64,000 bases of DNA from Liolophura sinensis (Eukaryota > Mollusca > Polyplacophora > Chitonida > Chitonidae), in the NCBI RefSeq assembly GCF_032854445.1, contig NC_088305.1, positions 2,113,001 through 2,177,000 on the forward strand. Direction: 5' to 3'. The notes under the pieces were generated by a model. It saw nothing but the letters and a program-made list of their open reading frames with translations. It ran no database searches and was not told the origin of the DNA. The position numbers and the translations under genes were made by a program. Of the stretch, positions 5,738 to 46,021 are shown piece after piece; within the stretch, counting starts at the first letter, position 1; every line of letters begins with the position of its first letter.

Positions 5738-5782
5738 GTCTGTTCGCGTGTGCTTAAGGCACCTGTAAACCCAATAGTAGGT
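5738..5782 (+). pseudogene. Truncated ISG12-like signal-peptide exon (copy A remnant)
   Basis: Only the last 45 bp of the 79-bp signal-peptide exon remain, followed by the conserved GTAGGTGCATG donor. In the ancestral frame a CAA codon has become TAA at about 5754, and the ATG and hydrophobic core are missing. It cannot encode the signal peptide for the downstream exon at 9320. Confidence 0.75.
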
Positions 5783-5857
5783 GCATGATGACAAATATTG
5801 CTGGTATATTGGCTCACAGCAATTATCTCTCATGCAGTTTACACCATCACAATATGT

Positions 5858-7740: not shown

Positions 7741-9055
7741 ATGTGGGTCTAATTTCGGTGTGATTATCTCTCATGCAGTTTACACCATGACAATATGTTT
7801 GACACGTGTTATTCATGTAGGGACATGTGGGTCTAATTTCGGTGTGATTATCTCTCATGCAGTTTACACCATGACGATATGTTTGACATGTGTTATTCAT
7901 GTAGGGACATGTGGGTCTAATTTCGGTGTGATTATCTCTCATGCAGTTTACACCATGACAATATGTTTGACATGTGTTATTCATGTAGGGACATGTGGGT
8001 CTAATTTCGGTGTGATTATCTCTCATGCAGTTTACACCATCACAATATGTTTGACACATGTTATTCATGTAGGGACATGTGGGTCTAATTTCGGTGTGAT
8101 TATCTCTCATGCAGTTTACACCATCACAATATGTTTGACATGTGTTATTCATGTAGGGACATGTGGGTCTAATTTCGGTGTGATTATCTCTCATGCAGTT
8201 TACACCATGACAATATGTTTGATGTGTTATTCATGTAGGGACATGTGGGTCTAATTTCGGTGTGATTATCTCTCATGCAGTTTACACCATCACAATATGT
8301 TTGACATGTGTTATTCATGTAGGGACATGTGGGTCTAATTTCGGTGTGATTATCTCTCATGCAGTTTACACCATCACAATATGTTTGACATGTGTTATTC
8401 ATGTAGGAACACCATCACAATATGTTTGACATGTGTTATTCATGTAGGGACATGTGGGTCTAATTTTGGTGTGGTTATCTCTCATGCAGTTTACACCATC
8501 ACAATATGTTTGACATGTGTTATTCATGTAGGGACACCATCACAATATGTTTGACACGTGTTATTCATGTAGGAACACCATCACAATATGTTTGACATGT
8601 GTTATTCATGTAGGGACATGTGGGTCTAATTTTGGTGTGATTATCTCTCATGCAGTTTACACCATCACAATATGTTTGACATGTGTTATTCATGTAGGGA
8701 CATGTGGGTCTAATTTTGGTGTGATTATCTCTCATGCAGTTTACACCATCACAATATGTTTGACATGTGTTATTCATGTAGGGACATGTGGGTCTAATTT
8801 TGGTGTGATTATCTCTCATGCAGTTTACACCATCACAATATGTTTGACGTGTTATTCATGTAGGGACGCCATCACAATATGTTTGACACGTGTTATTCAT
8901 GTAGGAACACCATCACAATATGTTTGACATGTGTTATTCATGTAGGGACATGTGGGTCTAATTTTGGTGTGATTATCTCTCATGCAGTTTACACCATGAC
9001 AATATGTTTGACATGTGTTATTCATGTAGGGACATGTGGGTCTAATTTCGGTGTG
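7740..9055. repeat. 84-bp minisatellite inside the copy-A ISG12 intron
   Basis: The unit is the 41-bp repeat plus a 43-bp segment with GTGGGTCTAATTTCGGTGTG and ATCTCTCATGCAG, repeated about 13-15 times and mixed with some 41-bp units. Because 84 is divisible by 3 and no frame carries a stop in the unit, open frames run on both strands (7670-8254 plus, 7688-8194 minus). This is a property of the period, not evidence of a protein. Confidence 0.95.
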
Positions 9056-9319
9056 ATGTGGGCCTCCTCAACCTTTACCCACCTCTAATAGCGAAAACAA
9101 AACACAGCAAATAAAAAAATAAAAACAAAGGATCTGTATACGTGACCCAGGCACACACTAGCGCTCTGCTTCCATGGTTCTCTGTAAGTCTTGAAATGTG
9201 ACGGGGTTCTATTTTGGCGCTTCTTTCTAATAATCAAGTCTTCCGTAAACATAAGCGAATGAATAAACACCTTTCTGACTATATCCTTTAAAATTGCCCC
9301 CATGAAACATTGTTTTCAG

Positions 9320-9798
9320 GCTGGGACATTTTGTGGGGCGCTGCTATTGGAGGCGGGAAAGCAGCTGCAACTCCCCTGACACTCGGTGCGCTTGCTTTTA
9401 CCACTGGTGTAGTTGCCGTTGGATCCGTCGCAGCTGCCATCCAGTCCAGCGTGTACGGAGGTACGGTGAATGCCGGAAGTTTGTTTGCTGCGGCACAATC
9501 TGCAGGGGCTGTTGGATTCACAAGAGACGCTGTAATCAAAGGTGCAGTTGCTGGCGCCAAGAAAGCATGGGATTTCAGTCTTAGACTTGTTTCTGTCGTA
9601 TGCTATAATAAAGTACGCCAATCTTTCTGTGATGTTTGGTTAGCATATCTTCTACAAGTGAGCGGTTGCCGTTCCGCAGTATATCTCTTGCCGCCCTGTT
9701 TTGCAGCTTTTGTGGTTGTTCTTTATTTTCTTGTTGTAGTTCGACGAAATAACACATCAATAGGCGAAGTGAGGCAGTATGATACTGCTATAAAATAG
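9320..9798 (+). CDS. IFI6/IFI27 (ISG12)-like membrane-domain exon, copy A
   Basis: An intact acceptor (TTGTTTTCAG) precedes a frame starting WDILWGAAIGG and continuing with the Gly/Ala-rich hydrophobic repeats of the interferon-induced 6-16 family (Ifi-6-16): ALAFTTGVVAVGSVAAAIQS, then AGSLFAAAQSAGAVGF. Known members are small membrane proteins of mitochondria or ER linked to apoptosis and antiviral responses; a role here is inference. The family-like part ends near 9575 at AGAKKAW. The remaining roughly 70 codons read into an antisense LINE fragment and add a second hydrophobic stretch (FVVVLYFLVVV). In the intact minus-strand gene the protein instead stops after KKASDDSD. No usable signal-peptide exon lies just upstream, so this is an orphan exon unless it is spliced from elsewhere. 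Confidence 0.6.
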
Positions 9799-9840
9799 TT
9801 AAGACGATAAGATATCGTCGACCACGAGAGAGCACAGAGA
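9600..9840 (-). mobile_element. LINE reverse-transcriptase fragment (copy A)
   Basis: Antisense counterpart of the better preserved fragment at 23664-23891. Read on the minus strand it matches the C-terminal tail of non-LTR reverse transcriptases but carries disruptions. It abuts the ISG12-like exon and supplies that exon's extra C-terminal codons. Confidence 0.6.
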
Positions 9841-10384
9841 TATTAATTTAACCAAGTAAACTTACCTTAGCTTTGGACCGAACCAAACCCATAATAGTCT
9901 GATGTTTGAAGGAGTTCTTAGTTCACTGGTGCATCGAGCATATGGTCCGGAGTAGAAAAGAAAGTCTTTTACATGTTCCAAAAGCCATAATTTTTGTATG
10001 CATTACATTTAGATCCAGCTTGGTTAGGGTAAGCCATCGACATTCTTACTTCCTGAAAAGAGCCGTGTCGTCGGCGTATACGACAATTTTGAGTTGTCAG
10101 TCAGGTGCATTACTAACTGCTTTCCAAAATGGATCCTTGGAACTTCATATGTAACGGTATGGCGACTAGAATTGTGGCACGTGTTTTATTTTTTTTATTA
10201 GAAAACCAGTACCAAAACAACGAAGTTTTTGTTTACTTATTCATTTATTTGGGGTTTTGCGCAGTACTCAAGAACATTTCACTTATAGGACACCGAAATT
10301 TTGTGTTTGGATAGTGACAAATCATGGTCCACAATGCATAAGTCAAGAAGAACTACACCAAAAAACTGGCTGCTAATCATGTTC
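9840..10384. other. Duplicated non-coding sequence, copy A
   Basis: Near-identical to 23890-24476, including the GAAGGAGTTCTTAGTTCACT and GGTCCGGAGTAGAAAAG stretches. The open frame of about 80 codons at 9906-10154 is kept in the second copy (23995-24243), but the two copies are so similar that this says little about coding. No family is recognised. Confidence 0.5.
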
Positions 10385-10622
10385 CCTATTTATCTATTTA
10401 CTCAAGAACATTTCACTTATGCCACGGCGACAAGCAATATAATGGAAGGAAACTCACCAGATCCCGGGGAAACCCCCCACGACCACCCGCAGACCTTCCC
10501 ATGAACGTCCGGAGAGGAAGACTGCACCAGTTCGACTTGAACTCACAGCTATTACATTAGTGAGAGGCTCCTGGGTATTGTGTTGCAATAGCATGCTAAC
10601 CACATGGCCATGGAGGTTACCC
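10385..10622 (-). mobile_element. tRNA-headed SINE, minus orientation
   Basis: Contains, in reverse, the family landmarks: ACTCAAGAACATTTCACTTAT tail region, CCCGGGGAAACCCCCCACGA core, GGAGAGGAAG, CTTGAACTCACAG (box B-like) and a degenerate box A-like head ending CATGGCCATGGAGG. More than ten copies lie in the window. This one is duplicated, in shortened form, at 24477-24692. Confidence 0.8.
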
Positions 10623-11135
10623 CCCACCCACATTAGTCAAGAACTGGTCAAATACTGCAACAACAAGGCTTTAACTCCACGAGCTTCTGTAAACCCTTCC
10701 ACTAGCTTGACAGTTTTTGAATTGAGCTGTTGCTACTTCAGAAACCCCAAATGCAAAAATGAAAACTTGAGGTCTTTTGTTGCCAAAAGTTTCAGAATTA
10801 CACAAATTTCAGATGTCGTACAGGCTTCTGACCTCCGCAAACCTATAAAAGTGTACAGATACATGTAATGCACTTGCTGGACAATAGTACCTTTTACGAT
10901 CTGCCGACAATAATAATATTCACTTTTCAAAACTGAACTTGTTTTTGTCTCATTGTCTAAAGTGTTATGTTATGGAAATCATGTATCGATTTCAAATTCT
11001 GCCATGCTGACTGGTACCTTGCTCTCATAACACGTCCTCTCCCCTGACTACAAATGAGATGTTTTACAACAGCAAAAGTTCAATGATGACCGACAGATCC
11101 TTCCACAAATGCAATGGGATGATCCTTTTTGTTAA

Positions 11136-11189
11136 TTACTTCCATAGTTTCTTTATAGACATGTTCTTTTCTGAATCCTTCTGCATAAC
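11136..11189 (-). pseudogene. Extra copy of PSMC5 last coding exon
   Basis: On the minus strand this 54-bp segment encodes VMQKDSEKNMSIKKLWK plus a stop, identical in protein to the genuine last exon at 25107-25160, with an intact CAG acceptor. It lies in duplication copy A, about 14 kb beyond the true end of PSMC5. It could only serve as an alternative last exon if splicing skipped that far, which would give the same peptide. Confidence 0.85.
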
Positions 11190-11639
11190 CTGTGTACAGA
11201 AAAAAACACACATGTAGAAATTACATTTTCGTACAGCTAGAATGCAAACCAAATAAAATATTTTCAACGATGCTTTCAAGGCCAGTAAAAAACATGTCAC
11301 AACGGCATGGCGTGGTGTCAAGTCTGTTCAGTATTGCAAAGGAATTGTTCAGAGAGGAGTTATGATATGTCAGGTAAATGGCACCTCAGTGTGGTAGTGA
11401 AAAGTTACTCAGCCAATGGTGGTAAGCCATAAGCAAGCAAGATTTGATCATTAACATACTACAAAATTCAATTGTTTTTTTCCCCTTTCTTCTGTCATTT
11501 TGTCGAAGTAGATGTCTTTTAAAAATGAGGCCTTCGAATTTGACTTGTGCAATAACACATGGCTGGCTTAATCAAAACTTTAGGAAGGCTACCAAAGAGG
11601 TCGCCTGTAGGCGGAACATGAATGCAAAACTTCAGCTCA

Positions 11640-12005
11640 GTAAATAATTACTGAAATCGAGAATTTGGTTATTTACAGTAATTAGCATGCACCCAGAACA
11701 TCAACTATGGAGTATCACCTGGTATCATTGTCCTTTATATGCATGTAAAACTTCAGGTCAATACATGCAGTACTTTTTAAGATACCACCCCAAACATTTT
11801 GTTTAAAACTGATTCAAATACACAATGATGACAATACATTTAGTCATAAATTTTGTCATTTACTGTATTTAATATGTTCACACCGAATCAACGATGGAAT
11901 GTCCTCATCGTGTTATTCTGCCCTACATGTGTGCACATTTTGAGGTCAATAAATGCAGTGCTTTCAGAGATTCCACTCCTAACATTTTGTGTAATATTGA
12001 TTTCC
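11640..12005. repeat. Dispersed repeat family 1 (unclassified)
   Basis: Shared landmarks are GGTAATTTACAGTAATTAGCA, CATCAGCGATGGAA, GCATGTAAAACTTCAGGTCA and CCACCCCTAACATTTTG. Related copies lie near 25620-25970, 29120-29400, 41110-41560 and, inverted, 59725-60080. It is AT-rich and non-coding, with no terminal structure that I can define. Confidence 0.7.
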
Positions 12006-12272
12006 CTGCTGACGCTCGAGGTATGACACAGGCACTGGCGAGTTAACCGTGGCCTGCCAGAAACTGAAAGTAGGCAGCACGATAGAGATTATTGGATAAC
12101 TGGATTTATTTATTTGATTGGAGTTTTAGATTATTAGTTACATGGTTACTCAGTGATAGGATACACAAATACATGAATATAGTGTCAATAATCCTCGGCC
12201 CAATATGAGGATTATGGACACCTTATATTTACGTACCCTATCACTGAGTCACTACGTAACAAATTTATCCTA

Positions 12273-12605
<333 letters not shown>

Positions 12606-12689
12606 TCACAGACTGTCATTTATTCATCTTATTTATGTCTGACACTGTACTCGTGAATGTTCCACTTCCATGACTGCAGAGTACCTGAC

Positions 12690-12845
12690 AAACGTCCAGA
12701 TTTATTTATTTTTTATTGTTGTTTAATTTATTTATTTATTTAATTCTTCTTCAATTTATTGATTTATTTAATTGTTCTTTATTTTATTTATTTACCTGAT
12801 TAGTGTTTAATTGATTTATTTATTTGATTGGCGTTTAATGTCATA
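12690..12845. repeat. TTTATTTA low-complexity tract
   Basis: Dense TTTA/TTTATT repeats shared with 26698-26840, at the right end of the segmental duplication. Confidence 0.85.
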
Positions 12846-12896
12846 CCCTTACTGGACAGTAGTAAGATTTATGGGTGGGTGTCCAGATTTAACCAT

Positions 12897-13289: not shown

Positions 13290-14890
13290 AAAACCTTTTA
13301 TCGGAACCTTTTATTTCAGCTGTTCGTCTGAAGAAAACCTTACTTCATTTTGTCACCTTTCTTTTACTTCAAATGTAATGTTCGGCATACACGCGAGAGT
13401 TTAAGACACAACTCGACTCAACTTGGCCATCAGTGACTGGGATTAACTCCTTACGACCAGCTGAGTTGATTCGCTTCCTAAGCTCTTGTGTGTGAGGAGT
13501 TTTACACCTGCACAATGGAGGTTAGGTACCGTATTGTTCGAGTTAGAGATGGAAATGCATACACGTCGTCAACTGTCCAATATTCGTATTTTGGAGAAAT
13601 ATCAGCATGAACTGGAATACCCCAGTGACATTAGAACACATGCACTATGTTTTATGTCACGAGTTCGTGAGAAAAAATATAGGAGAGAGGCAATTTAACG
13701 CTGGACTAGCATTCGGTAAATCTACACACACAAGCTATATCTAGTTCACAGAACCGAATATGAAACAAGCTTTGTTAAGAAAAACACTACATTGTATATG
13801 TACATTATACATATATTGATGGCAGTTCACATTGTATGGCGTTGTCAAGTGATGCGCGCTGACGTAGCAAAACAATAAAGATCCACATAGACTGCGAGGC
13901 AATTAACATATCAGGTGACAGGCCCTTCGCTTCTCTGTTTGAAATTTCTATGCAGAATATTATGGGCGTGTAACTCAGACACACATGAGCTATATCTAGT
14001 TCACAGAACAAGCTGTCAAAAAAACCCTAAAAAACTCCGTACATCATACATATACTGACGACCGTTTACACTGTATGGCGTTGTCAAGTGACGCGTGCTG
14101 ACTTCGCACATCAGGTGATCGACACCATTGCGCCTGTTACGTAAGCGTATGTAGTTGTACAGAGGTCCACATAACTGTGTGCATTCTTAAACTACCGATC
14201 CATGTCTAAAAGCGTATTTTTTATTCTTTTTCAGTTATAGGCTAAGTATTATATGGAACTGATTAGGAGACCATGCATGCCTTTCGGGTTTTATTTAAGA
14301 GACCATCAAAAACATGCCAAATGATACCCTAAAAAAATCTGTAAAATTTAAAGGAAAGACTGTTGTCTGAAAGATGCCGGACTGTGTTCTGTTATTAAAA
14401 CATAACATTCTGTCCTATTCAACTAATATTCTGTTAGTCTAATAGAATATTTACGTTGGAGTGATAGAATATGTGTGTTATATTTAACAGAACTGTCCGC
14501 TGCAGTCTCGCCATTTACTGAAGTCTGACAATCATCGCTATATGAATATTTCGACTGTGGTCATTTAAACCTCAGTTTTAAAGTTTTAAATGTGGTCAGT
14601 TTTATGTGTGGAGGAAACCTGGGTACCAGATGTAATCCACCGACCTTTGGTAAGTTACTGACGAACTTTTCCACAAGCCATATACACACCGTATTGGGGG
14701 AAATATTTTTTGGCGGTATATTTTTTCATCCCATGAGGTGGCGTTAGTGTGAAGCAGGGCCTCAAGCCATTATTACGTCAAAAGTGGATTGTAGCGCACG
14801 TCTAAAGTGTTACAATGTATCAGTTTCTATTGTAACGTCGTACTGTCTGTTATGTGATGCCATCATGATGAGCTGAGAAGGGAACATTTT
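13290..14890. repeat. Repeat-rich region with copies at 18.6-20.6 kb
   Basis: Segments such as GACGCGTGCTGACTTCGCA, GAGACCATGCATGCCTTTC, TTATAGGCTAAGTATTATA and ATTGTAACGTCGTACTGTCTG recur directly at 19520-19850 and 20260-20600, and inverted at 18790-19150. No coding sequence is recognised here. The open frame at 13486-13698 has no family resemblance. Confidence 0.7.
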
Positions 14891-15485: not shown

Positions 15486-15560
15486 AAAAAGATAATAATT
15501 GTTTCACGAAATTTTTTTTTTTTTACATACTGACCTGATCATTCTTCCTGCGAGTATTTC

Positions 15561-15896
15561 TTTCAGCGGCCTCTCCTAAACGTCCGAGTTGACCACAAAC
15601 CATGGTATGGCAATCAACCAATGGGTCTAAAAAAGATCGGATACATGATGTCTGATATTTCCCGCGATGCAAAACTTAGCCGCCGGTACACGAATCACTG
15701 CGTCCGGGCTACGACAGCCACAGTCCTTGCTGATGTCGGTGTTTCTGTTATGTCTGTGACAGGCCCTCACAGTGAATCCAGTGTAGGGAGTTATGTCACC
15801 AAACCTTCCGTTTCAAAACGCCGTGAAATCAGCATTATCCTGCATGCTTCAAGTGTGTTATCAAAAAATGTTGAAAGTGAAAATGCCGTTGAGTGA
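15561..15896 (+). mobile_element. Crypton-like tyrosine recombinase C-terminal fragment
   Basis: The frame is open from 15561 and reads WYGNQPMGLKKIGYMMSDIS, then YTNHCVRATTATVL, VMSVTGPHSE and VGSYV. This matches the C-terminal half of eukaryotic tyrosine recombinases of the Crypton / DUF3504 type found in Cryptons and in Crypton-derived genes. The HxxR (NHCVR), second His region and Tyr (GSYV) are present. Normally a GH pair precedes the K/SE; here the motif is GPH, probably degenerate. The N-terminal half is missing and the frame ends about 35 residues after the Tyr. Likely a truncated, inactive copy. Confidence 0.7.
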
Positions 15897-15899
15897 AAA

Positions 15900-16626
15900 T
15901 ACTCCCATGTCAGTCACGCCACTCCCAGTGCAAATGCCCGACGCTGAGTCACGCCTCAAAGTTTTGGAGGGCTATGCATGAGTGTGACGCGTATATTTTA
16001 TGTAACTGGTACGGCGCACTGAGTGAAACATGTGTATGCGGCTGGTTTAATGTACATATAACTTTGTACTGATTGCGTCATTACAAATTTAAATTGTGAT
16101 AGCCACCCATTGTATTTCACAATACTATAAACGCAAATCATTTTTACCCTCATCATACCTTGAACGTATAAATTAAAATATATTTATTTGCTTACTTATA
16201 ATAAGCATAAACACACATCTATGATGTTATTGTTTTGTTATTTATCAACATGTTGAGAAATTAATATTGAAGTGAAAATGTGAACTGAAGTGTTCCATTA
16301 TTTCAACATTCGTTACCCGATGTTTATCAATTTGTTACAGAATGCAACACGACAGCAAAGCATTTACACAAGCAAACCAAATAAAATTCAGTATCAAACT
16401 ATTGTTAACCTAATTTTGTGTGTATCAGTTATTTTTTTTTTCGTTCGTAAGTCAAACTTTAATTACGTTTAAACAGTTGAACTCCCCATTTGTGTTGTCG
16501 TTTTGCTGATGCCAGAGGTTTCCAGCTCCTTTAGCTCTGTCAGACATCGATGTGGAAGAGTTTACAAATTTTAGGTCGAAGGCAAAGCCAATGTCTGTCA
16601 GAGGCCGGACGTTTGACAAAGAGGTC
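15900..16626. other. AT-rich flank, no gene seen
   Basis: Sequence after the recombinase fragment is AT-rich, with only short open frames. From about 16545 it enters a segment with inverted TGTGGAAGA / TCTTCCACA motifs, also present at 20690-20705. Confidence 0.5.
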
Positions 16627-16702
16627 CCCCTATGATGTTCAACAAACGAGCGTCTTCCACATCACTAATTAAGATGCTAAGGAATACGCAAATTCCTTAT
16701 CC

Positions 16703-16776
16703 AAGGCCGGATTTGAACCCGCACGTCATGTGTTGCACCGATTGAAAGCCAAGCGCCTTAACCACTAGACTACAGC
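16703..16776 (-). mobile_element. tRNA-derived SINE head (tRNA pseudogene-like)
   Basis: On the minus strand it reads CTGTAGTCTAGTGGTTAAGGCG (box A-like), an anticodon-arm-sized stretch, a longer variable region and CGGGTTCAAATCCGGCC (box B-like). The acceptor ends do not pair well and the same head with flanks recurs at 20743-20816. This is a SINE or tRNA pseudogene rather than a working tRNA. Confidence 0.7.
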
Positions 16777-16873
16777 AAACTTTATTAGCGGAGGGTTTAG
16801 AACAGTCAAAATTTTGAAATGCTGTTTTAGAGCTAAAACCGTATATTTAGACACTATAAATCAAAACCTGATC

Positions 16874-16883
16874 AAAAGAGAAA
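16874..16883. promoter_or_regulatory. IRF/ISRE-like AAAAGAGAAA motif upstream of ISG12 exon
   Basis: AAAAGAGAAA resembles the GAAANNGAAA binding core of interferon regulatory factors with one mismatch. It lies 197 bp before the ATG at 17071, exactly the same offset as the copy at 20915-20924 before the ATG at 21112. The two upstream regions are recent duplicates, so conservation is weak evidence. Confidence 0.25.
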
Positions 16884-17010
16884 TGTGTCCAAATTTCAGC
16901 GCTTAGCACCAAAAACTAAGCACTGTGACAAGGTTTTATATATTGATTTAATTCAGGTATTGTAACCTGATCAACCTGATCATGCTTTTTTTGCTGAATT
17001 ACAGCCATAT

Positions 17011-17025
17011 AATATTTAAATCGTT
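17011..17025 (+). promoter_or_regulatory. TATA-like box upstream of ISG12-type exon 1
   Basis: ATATAATATTTAAA lies about 50-60 bp before the ATG. The same element precedes the exons at 21112 (plus) and 18560 (minus). Position and sequence fit a TATA element; this is inference without transcript data. Confidence 0.35.
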
Positions 17026-17070
17026 AGACTTGCAGTGTCGATTCCGCTAGCAGAGACCACTGAATTCAAG

Positions 17071-17149
17071 ATGGGAGAGTCCAAGAAGGTGACATCTGTG
17101 CCTTTGGTGTTTCTGTTCCCGTGTCCTCAAAGCACCTGGGCAGATCATG
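17071..17149 (+). CDS. ISG12-like signal-peptide exon, orphan copy
   Basis: The 79-bp exon begins ATGGGAGAGTCC and encodes MGESKKVTSVPLVFLFPCPQ, ending with a split Gly codon at the GTAGGTGTATG donor. It is a typical short signal peptide, but prolines now interrupt the hydrophobic core (SVPLVFLFPCP), which should weaken it. The intron start is followed within 700 bp by opposite-strand sequence. The next plus-strand membrane exon is 6 kb away (23381) and is broken. Probably a non-functional fragment. Confidence 0.5.
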
Positions 17150-17514
17150 GTAGGTGTATGATGACAAATAATCCTGGTTCTTTGGCTCACTGCAATTATC
17201 TCTCATGCAATTTACACCATCACAATATGTTTGATGTTTAGGAATGAAGGTTTTCAGGCATCCAGGTAAGTAAACTATAAAAAATAACACTATAAAACTC
17301 TTCTTCTGGACAATGTATAATATTTACTGACGTTGCGGCGACAACTGGACCTGGTATATAGTGACAGAATTTGAATATAGTACAGTTTTACACGAGTGAA
17401 CAAATTTTACCATGTTGAGGTACATTTACACGAGCTAATTAACATTTTTTCGATACTATGTCCCAGATGTGATAAGTTAAACCTGGGTCCTCCATTGCAG
17501 TTTAGGGTGGGATT

Positions 17515-17738
17515 TTAAACCTTGACGAAAATGGCTTCCTTAACCCTTCTCTCAAACCAGTGGGGCTCCTTAGATAAAATATTTACGTTATACCCATTAA
17601 AACTGTGACCTGAATTACATATATGTTGGAAGGCAGCAGAATCAAAGCCACTAGGTGCCGGTGTTTGATGTTGTTTAACACGGTTACTTAGTAGCTGTTG
17701 TGTTTCACCAATATATGAGTCCCTGCATGTATCTGTTA
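17515..17738 (-). mobile_element. GIY-YIG endonuclease fragment (Penelope-like element)
   Basis: On the minus strand the frame reads CRDSYIGETQQLLSNRVKQH, then FQHICNSGHSF and EPHWFERRVKEAIFV. This is the pattern of GIY-YIG endonuclease domains carried by Penelope-like retroelements. The YIG half, the conserved Arg region (SNR) and the Glu of RRVKEA are visible. The upstream GIY half is missing; the frame instead continues into an unrelated segment (17739-17844) that also occurs alone at 19786-19968. A 5'-truncated insertion next to the intact ISG12-like gene. Confidence 0.7.
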
Positions 17739-17850
17739 CAATGGCAGAATACATTCTAGCATCATTCAGAGTGTATATTTGTGTGGTGCAAAATGTTGTG
17801 GTGTATACTTGTATGTCTGGCAACAACATATTGATGTCTAGCATCTAAAA

Positions 17851-18560
17851 TCAGTCTGAGTCATCCGATGCTTTCTTGGCGGCGCCAGCAACTGCACCTA
17901 AGACGACGGCGCTTGTTGTGACTCCAACAGCCCCTACAGATTGTGCCGTAGCGAACAAACTCCCGGCTGTCACCGTACCTCCGTACACGCTGGACTGGAT
18001 AGCAGCTGCGACGGATCCAGCGGCAACTCCACCGGTGGTAAAACCAAGCGCACCGAGTGCCAGGGGAGCTGCAGCTACAGACACACCTCCTATAGCAGCG
18101 CCCTTCAAAATGTCCCAACCTGAAGACAATGTTTCATAGGGGCAATTTAAAAGCATAAAGTCAGGAAGGTGTTTATTCATTCGCGCATGTTTACTGAAAA
18201 CTTGATTACTTGAAAGAAGCGCCAAATTAGAACTCCGTCACATTTCACGTTTTAATGAGAACCATGGAAGCAGAGCAATAGTGTGTGCCTGGGTTTTGCT
18301 TTTGCTATTAGAGCTGGATAAAGCTTGAGGAGGCTCTAACACATCACACTGATATCAGACCTACATGTACAGTACTTCTTTCTTCCTCATGAGTAACAAA
18401 TATCAAACATATTGTGATGGTGTAAATTGCATGAGAGATAATTGGAGTGAGCCAATATACCAGGAATATTTATACACCTACCATCGACTGCCGAGGTGCC
18501 TTGAGGACACACGAACAGAAACACCAAAAGCACAGCTGTAACCTTCTTGGACTCTCCCAT
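17851..18560 (-). CDS. IFI6/IFI27 (ISG12)-like small membrane protein, complete two-exon gene
   Basis: Exon 1 is 18560-18482 and encodes MGESKKVTAVLLVFLFVCPQ... with a clear signal peptide and likely cleavage near GTSA. A GTAGGTGTA donor splits a Gly codon. Exon 2 is 18119-17851, with a CAG acceptor, and continues WDILKGAAIGG through the Gly/Ala-rich Ifi-6-16 domain (ALGFTTGGVAAGSVAAAIQS, AGSLFATAQSVGAVGV, AVVLGAVAGAAKKA) to DDSD and a stop. Total 115 aa, normal for the family. Known relatives in vertebrates are interferon-induced membrane proteins of mitochondria or ER that influence apoptosis; an immune role here is inference. The intron is only 362 bp and lacks the minisatellites seen in copies A and B. 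A TATA-like element precedes the ATG. This is the only copy in the window with every part intact. Confidence 0.82.
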
Positions 18561-18639
18561 CTTGAATTCAGTGGTCTCTGCTTGGGGAATCGACACTGCA
18601 AGTCTAACGATTTAAATATTATATGGCTGTAATTCAGCA

Positions 18640-19310
18640 ACAAAAGCATGATCAGGTTGATCAGGTTACAATACCTGAATTGTCAAACTTTGATCAATGG
18701 CGAGACCGCTCTCACAATAGATATCAATGTTCTTACCAGACATACAAACATACACCACACCATTATACACCACAAAAACATACACTCAAAAAGCTAATCT
18801 GTTAATTTTAACAGAAAGTCTTTTGTCTGAATGATGCTAAAATGTATTCTGCTATTCTAACAGATAGATCTGTTTACAATAACACATATATTCTATTAAT
18901 CCAACGTAAATATTCTATTAGACTAACAGGATTTTATGTTGAATATGACGGAATATTATGTTTCATTAACAGAATACATTCCAGCATCACTCAGACAACT
19001 GACTTTCCTTTAAATTTAACAGTTTTTTTAACAATTTTTAGTGTATCATTTTGGCATGTTTTTGATGATCTCTTAAATGAAACCCGAAAGGCATGCATGG
19101 TCTACTAATTAGTTGCTTATAATACTTAGCCTATAACTGATATGGATCGGTAGTTTAAGAATGCTTACCTGTTGTTCAATGCGCTACAAGCTAGAGAATG
19201 ACACAAAGTCATGTGGGCCTCTGTATAAATTCTGAGATCTAACTACCTACGTCTAAGTAACAAATGCAACTTTATCTATTACCTGATCTGCGTGCGTCAC
19301 GTCATACAGT
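18640..19310. repeat. Inverted copy of the 13.9-14.5 / 19.5-19.85 kb repeat
   Basis: Reads as the reverse complement of 19520-19850 and of about 14040-14480: GGCATGCATGGTCT, TATAATACTTAGCCTATAA and TTTTTGATGATCTCTTAAAT are reversed landmarks. With 19520-19850 it forms a large imperfect inverted repeat around 19.3 kb. Confidence 0.75.
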
Positions 19311-19311
19311 G

Positions 19312-19360
19312 TGAATGGCAGTGAGCCAATATACCAGGAATGTTGGCTCACTGCCATTCA
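19312..19360. repeat. Perfect hairpin palindrome, 17-bp arms
   Basis: TGAATGGCAGTGAGCCA (19312-19328) is the exact reverse complement of TGGCTCACTGCCATTCA (19344-19360), with a 15-nt loop. It sits at the centre of the large inverted duplication and contains the GTGAGCCAATAT motif of the ISG12 intron. Confidence 0.95.
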
Positions 19361-19378
19361 TTGTTATTATGCACCTAC

Positions 19379-19457
19379 CATTGGGTTTACAGTTGCCTTG
19401 ACGAGACACAAACATAAACACCAAAAGCACAGCTGTCACCTTCTTGGACCCTTCCAT
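19379..19457 (-). pseudogene. ISG12-like signal-peptide exon, second minus-strand copy
   Basis: A 79-bp exon on the minus strand starts at 19457, reads MEGSKKVTAVLLVFMFVSRQ and ends in a split Gly codon at a GTAGGTGC donor. The open frame and donor are intact. The promoter region is cut off at about 19470 by a LINE-like segment, and no matching membrane exon follows in this orientation before the complete gene's own exon 1. Probably a fragment; an alternative first exon of the gene at 17851-18560 is possible. Confidence 0.5.
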
Positions 19458-19469
19458 CTTGAATTCGCT

Positions 19470-19520
19470 GTGTAACTCTTGCTGCCCTGTTCTGCAGCTT
19501 TTGTGGTTTGCTTTTTATTT
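19470..19520 (-). mobile_element. Short LINE fragment
   Basis: CTTGCTGCCCTGTTCTGCAGC and TTTTGTGGTTTGC match, in the same orientation, the LINE fragments at about 9690-9720 and 23750-23780. It truncates the neighbouring ISG12-like exon's promoter. Confidence 0.5.
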
Positions 19521-19974
19521 TATTGATGACCATTCACACTGTATGACGTGACGCGTGCTGACTTCGCATATCAGGTGATCGACACCACTTGTACCTGTGA
19601 CGAAGGCATATGTAGTTGTACAGAGGTCAACATGACTTTGTGTCATTCTGTAGTTTGTTGCGCAATTTTCAAGTATTCTTAAACTATCGATCGAAATTTA
19701 GAAGCGTATTTTTATTCCTTTTTAGTTATAGGCTAAGTATTATAAGGAACCTATTAGGAGACCATGCATGCCTTTCTGGTTTTATTTAAGAGATCATCAA
19801 AAACATGCCAAAATGATACACTAAAAACTTAATGTGTAAAATCTGTAAAACAGAACTATCTGTTACAATGGCAGAATACATTCTAGCATCATTCAGAGTG
19901 TATATTTGTGTGGTGCAAAATGTTGTGGTGTATACTTGTATGTCTGGCAACAACATACTGATGTCCATTGTGAG

Positions 19975-20227
19975 AGGGGCCTCCGTGGCTCAATCGGTTA
20001 ACGGGGTGACCCAGAAGCCTCTCACCAATGCGGTCGCTGTGAGTTCAAGACCAGCTCATGCTGGCTTCCTCTCCGGCCGTACGTGGGAAGGTCTGCCAGC
20101 AACCTGCGGATGGTCGTGGGTTTCCCCCGGGCTCTGCCCGGTTTCCACCCACCATAATGCTGGCTGCCGTCGTATAAGTGAAATATTCTTGAGTACGGCG
20201 TAAAAACACCAATCCAAAAAAAAAAAT
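19975..20227 (+). mobile_element. tRNA-headed SINE, near full length
   Basis: Begins GGGGCCTCCGTGGCTCAATCG (box A-like), then GTTCAAGACCAGC (box B-like), the GGTCGTGGGTTTCCCCCGGGC core, TGAAATATTCTTGAGTACGG and a poly(A) end. Family consensus is visible by comparison with 50288-50556 and 63630-63895. Confidence 0.88.
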
Positions 20228-20259
20228 CTATTGTGAGAGCGGTCTCGCAATTGATCGAA

Positions 20260-20735
20260 GTCTGACAATCATCGCTATATAAATATTAGACTGTGGCCAT
20301 TTAAACCTTAGTTTTAAAATTTTAAAGGTTGTCAGTTTTATGTGTGGAGGAAACCTGAGTACCAGATGTAATCCACCGACCTTTGGTAAGTTACTGACGA
20401 ACTTTTGCACAAGCCGCGTACACACCGTATTGGTGGAAGCCAATAGGAAAGCGGTATATTTTGTCATCCCGTGATGTGGCGCTAGTGTGAAAATTGATCT
20501 CAAGCCCTTGTTACGTGGATTGTAGCGCAAGTCTACAGTGTTATCGGTTTCTATTGTAACGTCGTACTGTCTGTTATGTGATGCCATCACGATGGGCTGG
20601 GAAAGGAACATTAAACCTCAACAAAATAACGCCAACGTCCTGCTGCCGGGCTTTTGAGAGACAGGTCCCCAATAGTGTTCAACAAACGAGCGTCTTCCAC
20701 ATCACCAATTAAGGTGCTAAATAATATGCAAATTC
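20260..20735. repeat. Second copy of the 14.5-14.9 kb dispersed segment
   Basis: Matches 14525-14880 closely (GAAGTCTGACAATCATCGC, CAGATGTAATCCACCGACC, ATTGTAACGTCGTACTGTC). The minus-strand open frame 20228-20611 is a by-product with no family match. Confidence 0.75.
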
Positions 20736-20742
20736 CTTGTCC

Positions 20743-20816
20743 AAGGCCGAGTTTGAACCCGCACTTCATGTGTTCCAGCGGTTGAAAGACAAACGCCTTA
20801 ACCACTAGACCACAGC
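20743..20816 (-). mobile_element. tRNA-derived SINE head, second copy
   Basis: Same structure as 16703-16776: minus-strand TGTGGTCTAGTGGTTAAGGCG and GCGGGTTCAAACTCGGCC, again directly upstream of an ISG12-like promoter and exon 1. The head, promoter and exon were copied as one block. Confidence 0.7.
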
Positions 20817-20914
20817 AAACTTTATTAGCCGAAGGTTTAGAATAGTCAAAATTTTGAAATGCTGTTTTAGCGCTAAGGCCCTATATTTAAACACTAGAAA
20901 TCAAAAAACTGATC

Positions 20915-20924
20915 AAAAGAGAAA
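20915..20924. promoter_or_regulatory. IRF/ISRE-like AAAAGAGAAA motif, copy B
   Basis: Same motif and same 197-bp distance to the ATG (21112) as at 16874-16883. One mismatch to the GAAANNGAAA core. Confidence 0.25.
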
Positions 20925-21111
20925 TGTGTCCAAATTTCAGCGCCTAGCACCAAAAACTAAGCACTGTGACAAGGTTTTATATATTGATTTAATTCAGGTA
21001 TTGTAACCTGATCAACCTGATCATGCTTTTGTTGCTGAATTACAGCCATATAATATTTAAATCGTTAGACTTGCAGTGTCGATTCCGCAAGCAGAGACCA
21101 CTGAATTCAAG

Positions 21112-21190
21112 ATGAAAGGGTCCAAGAAGGTTACAGCTGTGCTTTTGGTGTTTCTGTTCGTGTGTGCTCAAGGCACCTGTAAACCCAGTG
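21112..21190 (+). pseudogene. ISG12-like signal-peptide exon, copy B
   Basis: An intact 79-bp exon begins ATGAAAGGGTCC and encodes MKGSKKVTAVLLVFLFVCAQ..., ending in a split Gly codon at GTAGGTGCATG. Promoter-proximal sequence and the TATA-like box are present. Its partner exon at 23381 has lost the acceptor and has an in-frame stop, so the gene as a whole looks inactivated even though exon 1 could still be transcribed. Reading through the donor stays open for about 55 codons. Confidence 0.6.
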
Positions 21191-21301
21191 GTAGGTGCAT
21201 GATGACAAATATTCCTGGTATATTGGCTCACTGCAATTATCTCTCATGCAGTTTACACCATCACAATATGTTTGACATGTGTTATTCATGTAGGGACAGG
21301 T

Positions 21302-21410
21302 GGGTCTGTTCGTGTGTGCTCAAGGCACCTGTAAACCCAGTGGTAGATGCATGATGACATGACGACATATTCCTGGTATATTGGCTCACTGCAGTTATCT
21401 CTCATGCAGT
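21302..21410 (+). repeat. Partial tandem copy of ISG12 exon-1 tail plus donor
   Basis: GTCTGTTCGTGTGTGCTCAAGG... and AAACCCAGTGGTAGATGCATG repeat the end of exon 1 and the start of its intron about 145 bp downstream of the original. Its left edge (GTCTGTTCG) is the same point where copy A of the large duplication begins, suggesting that this partial copy seeded that boundary. Confidence 0.7.
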
Positions 21411-21459
21411 TTACACCACCATAATATGTTTAACGTGTGTTATTAATGTAGGGACATGT

Positions 21460-23110
21460 GGGTCTAATTTCAGTGTGATTATCTCTCATGCAGTTTACCC
21501 CATCACAATATGTTTGACGTGCGTTATTCATGTAGGGACACCATGACAATATGTTTGACATGTGTTATTCATGTAGGGACATGTGGGTCTAATTTCGGTG
21601 TGATTATCTCTCATGCAGTTTACACCATCACAATATGTTTGACACATGTTATTCATGTTGGGACATGTGGGTCTAATTTCAGTGTGATTATCTCTCATGC
21701 AGTTTACACCATGACAATATGTTTGACATGTGTTATTCATGTAGGGACATGTGAGTCTAATTTCGGTGTGATTATCTCTCATGCAGTTTACACCATCACA
21801 ATATGTTTGACACGTGTTATTCATGTAGGGACATGTGGGTCTAATTTTGGTGTGATTATCTCTCATGCATTTACCCCATCACAATATGTTTGACATGTGT
21901 TTTTTATGTAGGGGCATGTGGGTCTAATTTCGGTGTGATTATCTCTCACGCAGTTTACACCATGACAATATGTTTAACATGTGTTATTCATGTAGGGACA
22001 TGTGGGTCTAATTTTGGTGTGATTATCTCTCATGCAGTTTACACCATGACAATATGTTTGACATGTGTTATTAATGTAGGGACATGTGGGTCTAATTTCA
22101 GTGTGATTATCTCTCATGCAGTTTACATCATCACAATATGTTTGACACGTGTTATTAATGTAGGGACGCCATCACAATATGTTTGACACGTGCTATTCAT
22201 GTAGGGACACCATGACAATATGTTTGACATGTGTTATTCATGTAGGGACACCATCACAATATGTTTGACACGTGTTATTCATGTAGGGACACCATCACAA
22301 TATGTTTGACACGTATTATTCATGTAGGGACATGTGGGTCTAATTTCGGTGTGATTATCTCTCATGCAGTTTACACCATGACAATATGTTTGACACGTGT
22401 TATTCATGTAGGGACATGTTGGTCTAATTTCGGTGTGATTATCTCTCATGCAGTTTACACCATGACAATATGTTTGACATGTGTTATTCATGTAGGGACA
22501 TGTGGGTGTAATTTCGGTGTGATTATCTCTCATGCAGTTTACACCATCACAATATGTTTGATATGTGTTATTCATGTAGGGACATGTGGGTCTAATTTCA
22601 GTGTGATTATCTCTCATGCAGTTTACACCATCATAATGTGTTTGACATGTGTTATTCATGTAGGGATATGTGGGTCTAATTTCGGTGTGATTATCAATCA
22701 TGCAGTTTACACCATGACAATATGTTTGACACATGTTATTCATGTAGGGACATGTGGGTCTAATTTCAGTGTGATTATCTTTCATGCAGTTTACACCATC
22801 ACAATATATTTGAAATGTGTTATTCATGTTGGGACATGTGGGTCTAATTTCGGTGTGATTATCTCTCATGCAGTTTACACCATGACAATATGTCTGACAT
22901 GTGTTATTCATGTAGGGACATGTGGGTCTAATTTCGGTGTGATTATCTCTCATGCAGTTTACACCATTACAATATGTTTGACACATGTTATTCATGTAGG
23001 GACATGTGGGTCTAATTTCGGTGTGATTATCTCTCATGCAGTTTACACCATGACAATATGTTTGACATGTGTTATTCATGTAGGGACATGTGGGTCTAAT
23101 TTCGGTGTGA
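21460..23110. repeat. 84-bp minisatellite inside the copy-B ISG12 intron
   Basis: About 18 units of the same 84-bp repeat as at 7740-9055, with a short run of 41-bp units near 22165-22310. Both strands are open for long stretches (22261-23115 plus, 22279-23079 minus) only because the period is a multiple of three. The array ends at the same GTGTGATGTG(A/G)GCCTCC junction as copy A. Confidence 0.95.
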
Positions 23111-23380
23111 TGTGAGCCTCCTCAACCTTTACCCACCTCTAATAGCGAAAACAAAACACAGCAAAAAAAAAAAAAATCAAAAAAAAAAGAGGATCTTTTT
23201 ACGTGACCCAGACATACACTAGCGCTCTGCTTCAATGGTTCTCTGTAAGTCTTGAAATGTGACGGGGTTCTATTTTGGCGCTTCTTTCTAATAATCAAAT
23301 CTTCCGTAAACATAAGCGAATGAACAAACACCTTTCTGACTATATATTTTAAAATTGCCCCCATGAAACATTGTTTTCAT

Positions 23381-23660
23381 GTTAGGACATTTTGTGGGGC
23401 GCTGCTATTGGAGGCGCGAAAGCAGCTGCAGCTCCCCTGGCACTCGGTGCAATTGGTTTTACCACCAGTGGAGTTGCCGCTGGATCCATCGCAGCCGCCA
23501 TCCAGTCCACCGTGTGCGGAGGTACGGTGAAAGCCGGAAGTTTGCTTGCTGCGGCACAATCTGTAGGGGCTGTTGGAGTCACAAGAGACGCTGTCATCAA
23601 AGGTGCAGTTGCTGGCGCCAAGAAAACAAGGGATTTCAGTCTTAGGCCTGTTTCTTTCGT
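23381..23660 (+). pseudogene. ISG12-like membrane-domain exon, copy B (broken)
   Basis: The Gly/Ala-rich domain is well kept (ALGAIGFTTSGVAAGSIAAA, AGSLLAAAQSVGAVGV, AVIKGAVAGAKK). The acceptor that reads TTTTCAG in copy A reads TTTTCAT here, and the first Trp codon (TGG in the other copies) is TAG at 23383-23385. Neither splice entry nor the frame start works, so this copy is a pseudogene as drawn. The frame then runs into the antisense LINE, as in copy A. Confidence 0.8.
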
Positions 23661-23663
23661 ATG

Positions 23664-23891
23664 CTATAATAAATTACGCCAAAATCTTTTTGTGATCTTT
23701 TTGGTTAGCATATCTTCTACAAGTGAGCGGTTGCCGTTCCGCAGTATATCTCTTGCCGCCCTGTTTTGCACCTTTTGTGGTTTGTTGTTTATTTTCTTGT
23801 TGCAGTTCGACGAAATAACACAATAGGCGAAGTGAGGGAGGTTGATACTGTTATAAATAGTTAACAGAGATGATGAGATATCGTCAACCAC
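23664..23891 (-). mobile_element. LINE reverse-transcriptase C-terminal fragment
   Basis: A minus-strand frame reads INLPHFAYCVISSNCNKKIN, then KPQKVQNRAARDIL. The L-P-H-F-x-Y-C, N-C-N-K and Q-K-x-Q-N-R-A-A-R blocks are typical of the reverse-transcriptase tail of CR1/Jockey-like non-LTR elements. It is a short truncated piece, antisense and directly 3' of the ISG12-like exon; the same arrangement in copy A shows the insertion predates the duplication. Confidence 0.75.
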
Positions 23892-24476
23892 GAGAGAGCA
23901 CAGAGTTATTCAATTTAACCAAGTAAACTTACCAGGAAAGCTTTGGACCGAACCAAACCCATAATAGTTTAACGAGTCTGATGTTTGAAGGAGTTTGAAG
24001 GAGTTCTTAGTTCACTGGTGCATCGAGCATATGGTCCGGAGTAGAAAAGAAAGTCTTTTACATGTTCCAAAAGCTATAATTTTTGTATGCATTACATTTA
24101 GATCCAGCTTGGTTAGGGTAAGCCATCGACATTCTTACTTCCTGAAAAGAGCCGTGTCGTCGGCGTATACGACAATTTTGAGTTGTCAGTCAGGTGCATT
24201 ACTAACTGCTTTCCAAAATCGATCCTTGGAACTTCATATGTAACAGTATGGCGGCTAGAATTGTGGCACGTGTTTTATTTTTTTTTATTAGAAAACCAGT
24301 ACCAAAACAACGAAGTTTTTGTTTACTTATTTATTTATTTGGGGTTTTGCGCAGTACTCAAGAACATTTCACTTATACGACACCGAAATTTTGTGTTTGG
24401 ATAGTGACAAATCATGGTCCACAATGCATAAGTCAAGAGGAAGTACACCAACAAACTGGCTGCTAATCATGTTCCC
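23892..24476. other. Duplicated non-coding sequence, copy B
   Basis: Near-identical to 9840-10384. It carries no recognised gene. Confidence 0.5.
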
Positions 24477-24692
24477 TATTTATCTATTTATTTGATTGGT
24501 GTTTTACGCCGTACTCAAGAATATTTCACTTATGCGACGGCGACCAGCATTATGATGGAAGGAAACCCAGCAGATCCCGGGGGAAACCCCCCACGACCAC
24601 CCGCAGACCTTCCCATGAACATTCGGAGAGGAAGACCGGACGAGTTGGACTTGAACTCTTAGCTATTACATTAGTGAGAGGCTCCTGGGCAT
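24477..24692 (-). mobile_element. tRNA-headed SINE, minus orientation, head missing
   Basis: TTTATTTGATTGGTGTTTTACGCC start, CCCGGGGGAAACCCCCCACG core and GGACTTGAACTCTTAGC. Same insertion as 10385-10622 in copy A. The tRNA-like head is replaced after about 24690 by the following sequence, a deletion private to this copy. Confidence 0.8.
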
Positions 24693-25106
24693 TGACAGTT
24701 TTTGCTACTTTAGAAACGCCAAAGGCAAAAATGAAAACTTGAGGTCTTTTATTGCCAAAAGTTTTAGAATTACACAAATTTCACATGTCGTACAGGCTTC
24801 TGACCTCTGCAAACTTATAAAAGTGTTCAGATACATGTAATGCACTTGCTGGACAATAGTACCTTTTATCATCTGATGACAATAATAATATTCACTTTTC
24901 AAAACTGAACTTGTTTTTGTCTCATTGTCTAAAGTGTTATGTTATGGAAATCATGTATCGATTCCAAATTCTGCCCTGCTGACTGGTACCTTGCTCTCAT
25001 AACACAACCTCTCCCTAACTACAAATGAGATGTTTTACAACAGCAAAAGTTCAATGATGACCGATAGATCCTTCCACAAATGCAATGGGATGATCCTTTT
25101 TGTTAA

Positions 25107-46021
<20,915 letters not shown>

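Follow-up and report, generated by a model that had tools for sequence, protein, structure and literature searches.

The 64,000-nucleotide stretch of the Liolophura sinensis genome analysed here (the window) contains several copies of two exons resembling those of ISG12 genes, and raises the question of which of these copies, if any, can still encode a protein. The features of the cluster are listed in Table 1.

Table 1. Features of the Ifi-6-16 cluster, with positions counted from the first nucleotide of the window
Feature	Position	Strand	Description
Copy A exon-1 remnant	5739-5840	+	Second half, with in-frame TAA, and start of intron 1
Copy A intron minisatellite	5841-9057	+	41/84-bp units, 3.2 kb
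A/E segmental duplication, 3' part	9058-12880	+	From sequence comparison
Copy A exon 2	9320-9579	+	Acceptor CAG/G kept; Ifi-6-16 domain open
Copy B upstream DNA	16604-17070	+	92% identity to 20645-21111; part closest to the ATG nearly unchanged
Copy B exon 1, orphan	17071-17149	+	79 bp, open, donor kept; faces copy C
Copy C exon 2	17851-18119	-	Ifi-6-16 domain and stop; acceptor TCTTCAG/GT; everything open in this copy only
Copy C exon 1	18482-18560	-	79 bp; putative signal peptide MGESKKVTAVLLVFLFVCPQGTSAVD and first Gly base; donor GTAGGT
Copy C promoter-like block	18561-18681	-	TATTTAAAT 58 nt before the ATG (by eye)
Copy D exon 1, orphan	19379-19457	-	79 bp, open, donor kept
Copy E upstream DNA with promoter-like block	20645-21111	+	From sequence comparison
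Copy E exon 1	21112-21190	+	79 bp, open, donor kept
Second partial copy of exon 1 end	21299-21330	+	In the 158-bp tandem duplication that starts the E array
Copy E intron minisatellite	21538-23111	+	84-bp, about 19 units
Copy E exon 2	23386-23640	+	Ifi-6-16 domain; copy named by position 23381

A preliminary description had proposed an ISG12/Ifi-6-16 cluster with three membrane-domain exons in a probable mollusc, and had suggested a Pfam comparison of the 115-aa product of copy C. The source is indeed a mollusc, the chiton L. sinensis, and all three membrane exons exceeded the curated Pfam cut-off for Ifi-6-16 (29.1 bits), with scores of 60.1 bits for the 115-aa product and of 43.2 and 55.2 bits for the whole open frames of copies A and E, respectively. 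In a sequence search, human IFI27L1 (FAM14B; PDB 2LOQ) matched residues 23-108 of the 115-residue product at an E-value of 2.7e-8, which became 7.3e-11 with a profile built from seven chiton sequences. IFI27L1 thus has the same domain as copy C. The copy C product has a hydrophobic segment at its N-terminus and a membrane-type domain rich in Gly and Ala; its putative signal peptide and transmembrane character were assigned from hydropathy, which over 19 residues peaks at residues 7-25 (1.92), 34-52 (1.73) and 88-106 (1.80). An AlphaFold2 model of the 88-aa domain, built from three sequences only, was all helix and was set aside for its mean pLDDT of 44.4. The Pfam and 2LOQ matches support the assignment of the cluster to a small local FAM14/ISG12 (Ifi-6-16) family in this chiton.

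The signal-peptide exons starting at 17071 and 21112 on the plus strand and at 18560 and 19457 on the minus strand are each exactly 79 bp long, begin with ATG and are followed by GTAGGT, and all four stop after the first base of a Gly codon (the same split Gly, phase 1). Five such exons had been described; the fifth, the 5739 remnant, departs from this pattern in its missing first half and in-frame stop, and is secured as a copy because 5739-5840 aligns with 21153-21254 over 102 bp (94%, E 2e-39). In BLAST comparisons between copies in the window, the full exons gave E-values of 1.2e-92 to 8e-27, the fragment at 21299 gave 2.8e-7 and the remnant at 5739 gave 5e-4. The fragment at 21299-21330, a sixth piece of exon 1, lies in the first repeat after copy E exon 1. 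An exon-1 query of the 609-Mb genome matched four places, all inside the window, in a search that misses short pieces, since the two short fragments were not among its matches.

Copy C alone combines an ATG, a donor, an acceptor, an open frame and a stop codon (115 aa), with exons 1 and 2 joining in frame, and promoter-like DNA occurs together with both splice sites and an open frame in 18560-17851 only, which bears out the earlier view of this stretch as the sole intact copy. By known splice rules, copy C is the only copy predicted to yield a full-length protein. The exon architecture had been described as common to all three membrane-domain copies; copies A (9320) and C (18119) do retain the CAG/G acceptor, but this is not fully true of copy E (23381), where CAT replaces CAG and a TAG immediately precedes the open frame. 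The exon-2 frame of copy E continues beyond an AATAAA at 23668, and that of copy A, which keeps only the remnant of exon 1, reads through an AATAAA at 9607 until a stop at 9796. Judging from the sequence, these lesions would be expected to block a normal product, and both copies look dead. Copies B and D are orphan first exons; homology of copy B stops inside the intron at 17239, and copy D is homologous to copy C only as far as 9 bp upstream of the ATG. Copy D is flanked by a pair of local inverted repeats, at 19035-19318 and 19530-19827. Transposon capture of this exon was considered but is not supported, since the flanking inverted-repeat arm matches only three places, all in the window, which makes a local inverted duplication likelier.

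These arrangements would fit an ancestral gene with a promoter, a 79-bp signal-peptide exon, an intron, a membrane-domain exon and an AATAAA, duplicated repeatedly into direct and inverted copies; comparison of the copies suggests that a segment of the intron then expanded into an 84-bp minisatellite in the A/E lineage. The A/E duplication is 90.5% identical between 9058-10580 and 23112-24694 and 84.1% identical between 10730-12880 and 24702-26883. Overall, the duplicated blocks in the window diverge by about 5 to 16%, far above the 1.24% heterozygosity given for the L. sinensis assembly (PMC11068029), and the duplications therefore did not happen very recently. The minisatellite in the introns appears younger than these blocks: its full-length units, averaged with shorter units left out, have mean identities to one consensus of 98.4% (copy A, 13 units) and 96.2% (copy E, 17 units). 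The cluster had been called actively rearranging, which does not suit the diverged blocks and agrees better with the minisatellite. In a genome search, matches to the 84-bp array were restricted to the window; a single-unit sequence is present in the copy C intron and, partly, in the copy B intron, and the minisatellite was apparently born from the intron-1 sequence itself.

With moderate confidence, we interpret the cluster as a local FAM14/ISG12 family in which copy C is intact and protein-capable and the other copies have decayed. Less confidently, we infer that copy C remains a transcribed and useful gene and not a relic left open by chance. It is possible, though we doubt it, that the entire cluster, copy C included, is a pseudogene graveyard, and that the working members of the family are three tandem genes at another locus of the same genome (C5), all of which have open frames and score 65.6-67.4 bits for Ifi-6-16. 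Consistent with such decay, dN/dS for exon 2 between copies A, C and E was near 1 in all three comparisons (0.96-1.60), the changes were spread evenly over codon positions, and by this measure purifying selection was detected in no copy, C included. However, the intervals were wide (0.44-2.65 for C/A), and the same test revealed no significant constraint in the C5 copies, which makes it a weak test. Between copies, exon 2 and the adjoining intron had similar identities (C/A, 87.0 vs 88.0%; C/E, 84.3 vs 84.0%; A/E, 91.1 vs 94.3%), which, with dN/dS near 1, fits the decay of A and E. Copy C itself no longer has its native 3' end or poly(A) signal and stops next to a repeat fragment. Since its homology to A and E breaks off at 17863, 9 nt short of the stop codon, and neither AATAAA nor ATTAAA occurs within 850 nt after it, copy C too may be decaying. 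Against a graveyard stand the ATG, splice sites, frame and stop that copy C retains, and a promoter-like block with 97.5-99% identity to those of B and E.

This block, termed promoter-like by eye, is identical between copy C and copy E at 120 of 121 positions and between copy C and copy B at 118 of 121. Between B and E, with gap columns scored as differences, 2 of 160 columns differ in the conserved block versus 35 of 280 farther upstream, a contrast whose p value of 9e-6 is optimistic because the bin limits were set after seeing the divergence profile. Near-constancy of the block in B, C and E is unlike dead copies, unless gene conversion explains it. The ISRE, GAS and kB consensus sequences were found in none of the four 500-bp regions upstream of B, C, E and D, and the IRF core AANNGAAA occurred in them at chance level (1, 2, 1 and 0 times, respectively); IRF- and STAT-type motifs were thus not above chance upstream of the copies. 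The chiton genome contains IRF DNA-binding domains and STAT domains, and chitons are not known to have a type I interferon.

The shared structure of the first exons would also suit an alternative-first-exon cassette, in which B and E on the plus strand, or D and C on the minus strand, give different in-phase N-termini to one membrane exon; we regard this as improbable. The four full exon-1 copies agree in length, donor and phase; D and C share a strand, with D upstream; and in B, C and E the promoter-like blocks hardly differ, yet exon 1 has diverged more than the sequence on either side (B/E, 18/76 vs 11/211 differences, p 2e-5; C/E, 12/76 vs 6/205, p 3e-4; B/C, 10/76 vs 9/205, p 0.015). However, the shared plus-strand acceptor, that of copy E, is no longer present, splicing to the following AG would not keep the frame, and copy D has no homologous promoter. 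Moreover, the excess of exon 1 over the intron alone was weak (p 0.02 for B/E, 0.07 for C/E and 0.29 for B/C, with the copy C intron differences counted from a hand alignment); against far upstream DNA, p was 0.03. Replacement changes exceeded silent ones in exon 1 with nominal significance in one of six pairs (C/E, p 0.03), and strong positive selection on exon 1, being only partly supported by these comparisons, was not retained. Also improbable is a live diversifying unit, in which the conserved promoter block would drive first exons with targeting peptides that evolve faster than the neutral sequence around them, D could supply a second in-phase N-terminus for the copy C membrane exon and inverted B would run antisense across C; if true, ISG12 protein targeting would thereby vary in a manner specific to chitons.

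Beyond the window, the C5 and C12 loci carry the same Ifi-6-16 domain at 36-41% identity to copy C. As in the cluster, a phase-1 split Gly precedes the membrane exon in the DNA of one C5 gene, and reading frames suggest that the other C5 and C12 genes share this junction; in contrast, their domain is preceded by an exon of about 100 aa, whereas the window copies have a signal-peptide exon. None of the three C5 upstream exons matched Pfam at E up to 10, longer frames gave sub-threshold chance matches only, and a PDB match was likewise absent. Against a profile of eight chiton CARD exons (those with loci among 20 CARD matches), the C5 exon gave an E-value of 0.011 but a probability of 3.8%, and a CARD identity would be tentative at most. 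Viral carriage of the Ifi-6-16 domain was discarded, as none of 78 peptide-pattern stretches in viral contigs was confirmed.

The cluster had been thought notable since invertebrates lack classical type I interferon. This argument is weak in view of the published mollusc and shrimp members, including mussel hemocyte expression and an antiviral effect in shrimp. LvIFI6-16 of Litopenaeus vannamei is induced by poly(I:C) and WSSV, and its silencing leads to higher mortality and virus load (PMC9144789); 25 IFI27 transcripts occur in the oyster Saccostrea glomerata (PMC4892480), and IFI27/ISG12 is expressed in hemocytes of Mytilus galloprovincialis (PMC4581086). LvIFI6-16 resembles copy C in being short, with a signal peptide, a transmembrane stretch and a C-terminal Ifi-6-16 domain, but it was cloned and tested in shrimp (PMC9144789), whereas the chiton copy is known from genomic sequence alone. 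The bivalve genes share family name and phylum with the chiton cluster and are multi-copy in the oyster; however, genomic layout, decayed copies and an intronic minisatellite are not described in the available text of those accounts (PMC4892480, PMC4581086). Our literature search, which covered molluscs and invertebrates at large, listed papers for ISG12 in molluscs and for IFI27 in oysters and gastropods, and one for interferon alpha-inducible protein in Crassostrea gigas; it listed none for expansion of the ISG12/IFI27 family in invertebrates or, under the name Ifi-6-16, for molluscs.

If copy C is the intact member that we favour, its protein would enter the membrane of the ER or another organelle and, by analogy with FAM14 proteins elsewhere, may shift the apoptosis threshold in infection or stress. 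The find is modest and mostly ordinary, since relatives of IFI6/IFI27, which belong to the human antiviral response, are already known in molluscs, and the general picture of the Ifi-6-16 family, known outside vertebrates before, is unchanged. What the locus contributes is a chiton with several Ifi-6-16 gene copies in two architectures, a signal peptide plus domain in the window and an exon of about 100 aa plus domain at C5 and C12, whose intron position and phase appear to be the same. A further contribution is a clean example of a minisatellite that seemingly arose from one intron segment and remained confined to one locus.

The spliced 115-aa product of copy C (18560-17851), one of the whole or partial ISG12-like gene copies A to E in the window, matched the Pfam Ifi-6-16 domain at 60.1 bits in the search proposed by the preliminary description, and copies A and E scored 43.2 and 55.2 bits, respectively, against a cut-off of 29.1 bits. 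Human IFI27L1 (2LOQ) was the sole significant relative in a PDB search; the other match, a chloroplast protein, was not significant (E 0.35). The proposed ISG12/Ifi-6-16 assignment is therefore borne out and no longer based on composition alone. The Pfam search of the genome (632 contigs; 609,464,459 bases) gave at least seven Ifi-6-16 places (seven candidates, seven scored; the counts are lower bounds), three in the window, three on contig C5 and one on contig C12. The suspected mollusc origin agrees with eight tandem mollusc-type hemocyanin beta-sandwich matches on one strand of a further contig (C8:37880506-37891931), arranged as in an eight-functional-unit hemocyanin gene.

Positions and strands of the ISG12-like copies and of the exon coding about 100 residues on contigs C5 and C12 (L001 and L002, stretches of C5)
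Feature	Position	Strand
Copy A	5739-12880	+
Copy B	16604-17239	+
Copy C	18681-17851	-
Copy D	19457-19379	-
Copy E	20645-26883	+
About 100-aa exon	C5:7050673-7051080 (L001 5174-5581)	-
About 100-aa exon	C5:7064883-7065290 (L002 4384-4791)	-
About 100-aa exon	C5:7069901-7070308 (L002 9402-9809)	-
About 100-aa exon	C12:19724368-19724744	

The alignments show copies A and E to be direct duplicates of a single larger segment (90.5% identity between 9058-10580 and 23112-24694; 84.1% between 10730-12880 and 24702-26883). Copy B aligned with the upstream part of copy E over 632 bp (90.2%) and, in inverted orientation, with copy C over 290 bp (91.4%). A common 79-bp first exon with a split Gly codon had been described for five copies, one of them a remnant; in four, the exon is indeed 79 bp, open, ends one base into the Gly codon and is followed by GTAGGT, and in copy A the second half alone remains, with an in-frame TAA. 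An exon-1 query found four genome places, all within the window, in a search that did not list the two short exon-1 fragments. Local duplications, some inverted and some direct and 77-85% similar, were seen at 18863-20612 and 14053-14888, and the inverted-repeat arm at 19530-19827 was found at three genome places only, all within the window.

Copy C, reported as the complete copy at 17851-18560, indeed contains every part of the gene, and its exons 1 and 2 join in frame. Copy A has an exon-2 acceptor without a first exon. Copy E has exon 1 and its donor; its acceptor reads CAT, not CAG, and the next AG sits inside the TAG closing the exon-2 frame, where splicing, by reading the sequence, would shift the frame. 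The C-terminal frames of A and E are unlike that of C and continue through AATAAA (at 9607 in A, with the first stop only at 9796; at 23668 in E, with a stop at 23824), so that a message ended there would be without a stop codon. The homology of copy C to A and E does not extend past 17863, which lies 9 nt short of the stop codon of C, a repeat shared with 19857-19965 starts at 17838, beside its 3' end, and neither AATAAA nor ATTAAA was found within 850 nt downstream. On this comparison with A and E, the native 3' end of copy C has probably been lost; the alternative is that A and E changed instead. One AATATA lies in the first 400 nt downstream. The 3' end lands in a 109-aa open frame directly downstream on the same strand (17515-17844, -), which gave no Pfam match at E 0.01 and looks like part of a retroelement protein, its GIY-YIG end. 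A 120-aa open frame (15534-15896, +), also with no Pfam match at E 0.01, is one that we take to resemble a recombinase-related repeat protein, and a 370-aa open frame (60206-61318, +) matched Pfam CHGN (chondroitin N-acetylgalactosaminyltransferase; 319.7 bits) and represents an exon of an unremarkable gene nearby.

Arrays of 41/84-bp units make up the introns of A (3.2 kb) and E (1.6 kb). The intron of C contains parts of one unit, each a single time and in order, and the intron of B contains a shorter part; we read this single-unit sequence as the putative precursor of the array. A two-unit query found at least 41 genome places, all within the window, in a search that passes over very frequent words and whose counts are lower bounds. 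Given the single-unit parts and the confinement of the matches to the window, the array seems to have arisen from the intron of this Ifi-6-16 gene and to have remained at the locus. Since 84 is divisible by 3, long open frames (up to 289 and 280 aa) run through both strands of the array; they should not be taken as genes. A separate tandem repeat of 37 bp occupies 1-2800, with about 76 copies in which adjacent units match at 93%.

Over 82 codons of exon 2, excluding one C-only codon, the diverged tail and the first codon of E (a stop), dN/dS was 0.96 for C/A (bootstrap range 0.44-2.65), 1.03 for C/E (0.45-2.65) and 1.60 for A/E (0.60-8.5), and the differences at the three codon positions numbered 9, 12 and 10; 11, 11 and 9; and 8, 8 and 5, respectively. 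Exon 2 was about as alike between copies as the adjoining intron, or less so (C/A, 87.0 versus 88.0%; C/E, 84.3 versus 84.0%; A/E, 91.1 versus 94.3%). Unconstrained copies would show this pattern, though the power is low, since the C5 genes likewise gave no significant result (dN/dS 1.0-1.6 among the C5 copies and 0.53-0.56 against C12).

For the pairs C/E, B/E and B/C, the 121 bp before the ATG differed at 1, 2 and 3 positions, exon 1 after the ATG at 12, 18 and 10 of 76, and the intron, over its first 84-90 bp, at 5, 9 and 6, respectively. The corresponding p values were 3e-4, 2e-5 and 0.015 for exon 1 against both flanks and 0.07, 0.02 and 0.29 against the intron alone. The copies are thus most similar in the upstream block, through function or gene conversion, and exon 1 differs somewhat more than its flanks. 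Of the 12 exon-1 changes between C and E, 11.5 are replacements (p 0.03, silent versus replacement); this test gave p < 0.05 in one of six pairs, and the replacement excess should be seen as a lead rather than a result. No ISRE, GAS or kB consensus was present in the 500 bp upstream of B, C, D and E, where IRF cores occurred at chance level. IRF-type domains (six exon matches, three loci) and STAT (two exon matches, one locus) are encoded in the genome, which makes IRF/STAT wiring of the Ifi-6-16 copies possible.

In the three tandem genes on C5 and in the C12 copy, the Ifi-6-16 exon is preceded by an exon coding about 100 residues. This exon was found at no fewer than four genome places (150 of 182 candidates scored), each approximately 1.0-1.1 kb upstream of an Ifi-6-16 match, and among the matches scored it was seen only upstream of the C5 and C12 Ifi-6-16 exons. 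In one of the C5 genes, splicing from its donor to the Ifi acceptor keeps the frame, with the split Gly of the window copies at the junction; together with the distance, this junction makes it very likely that the two exons belong to one gene. The exon had no significant Pfam or PDB match; it looks CARD-like by eye, and a profile test against CARD was weak. The C12 copy looks broken, because a TAG interrupts its copy of this exon and the Ifi exon shifts between two overlapping frames. Open frames lying between the C5 genes (L002 115-1231, +) look like an LTR-retrotransposon integrase region.

Twenty-five IFI27-type transcripts are described in Saccostrea glomerata (PMC4892480), and in Mytilus galloprovincialis an IFI27-type gene is among the top 25 hemocyte transcripts, in a report in which hemocytes were stimulated and other tissues were not (PMC4581086). 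Poly(I:C) and WSSV both induce a shrimp member of the family, and mortality and virus load are higher when it is silenced (PMC9144789). IFI27-type genes are already known in molluscs, and the chiton cluster adds a member to the family.
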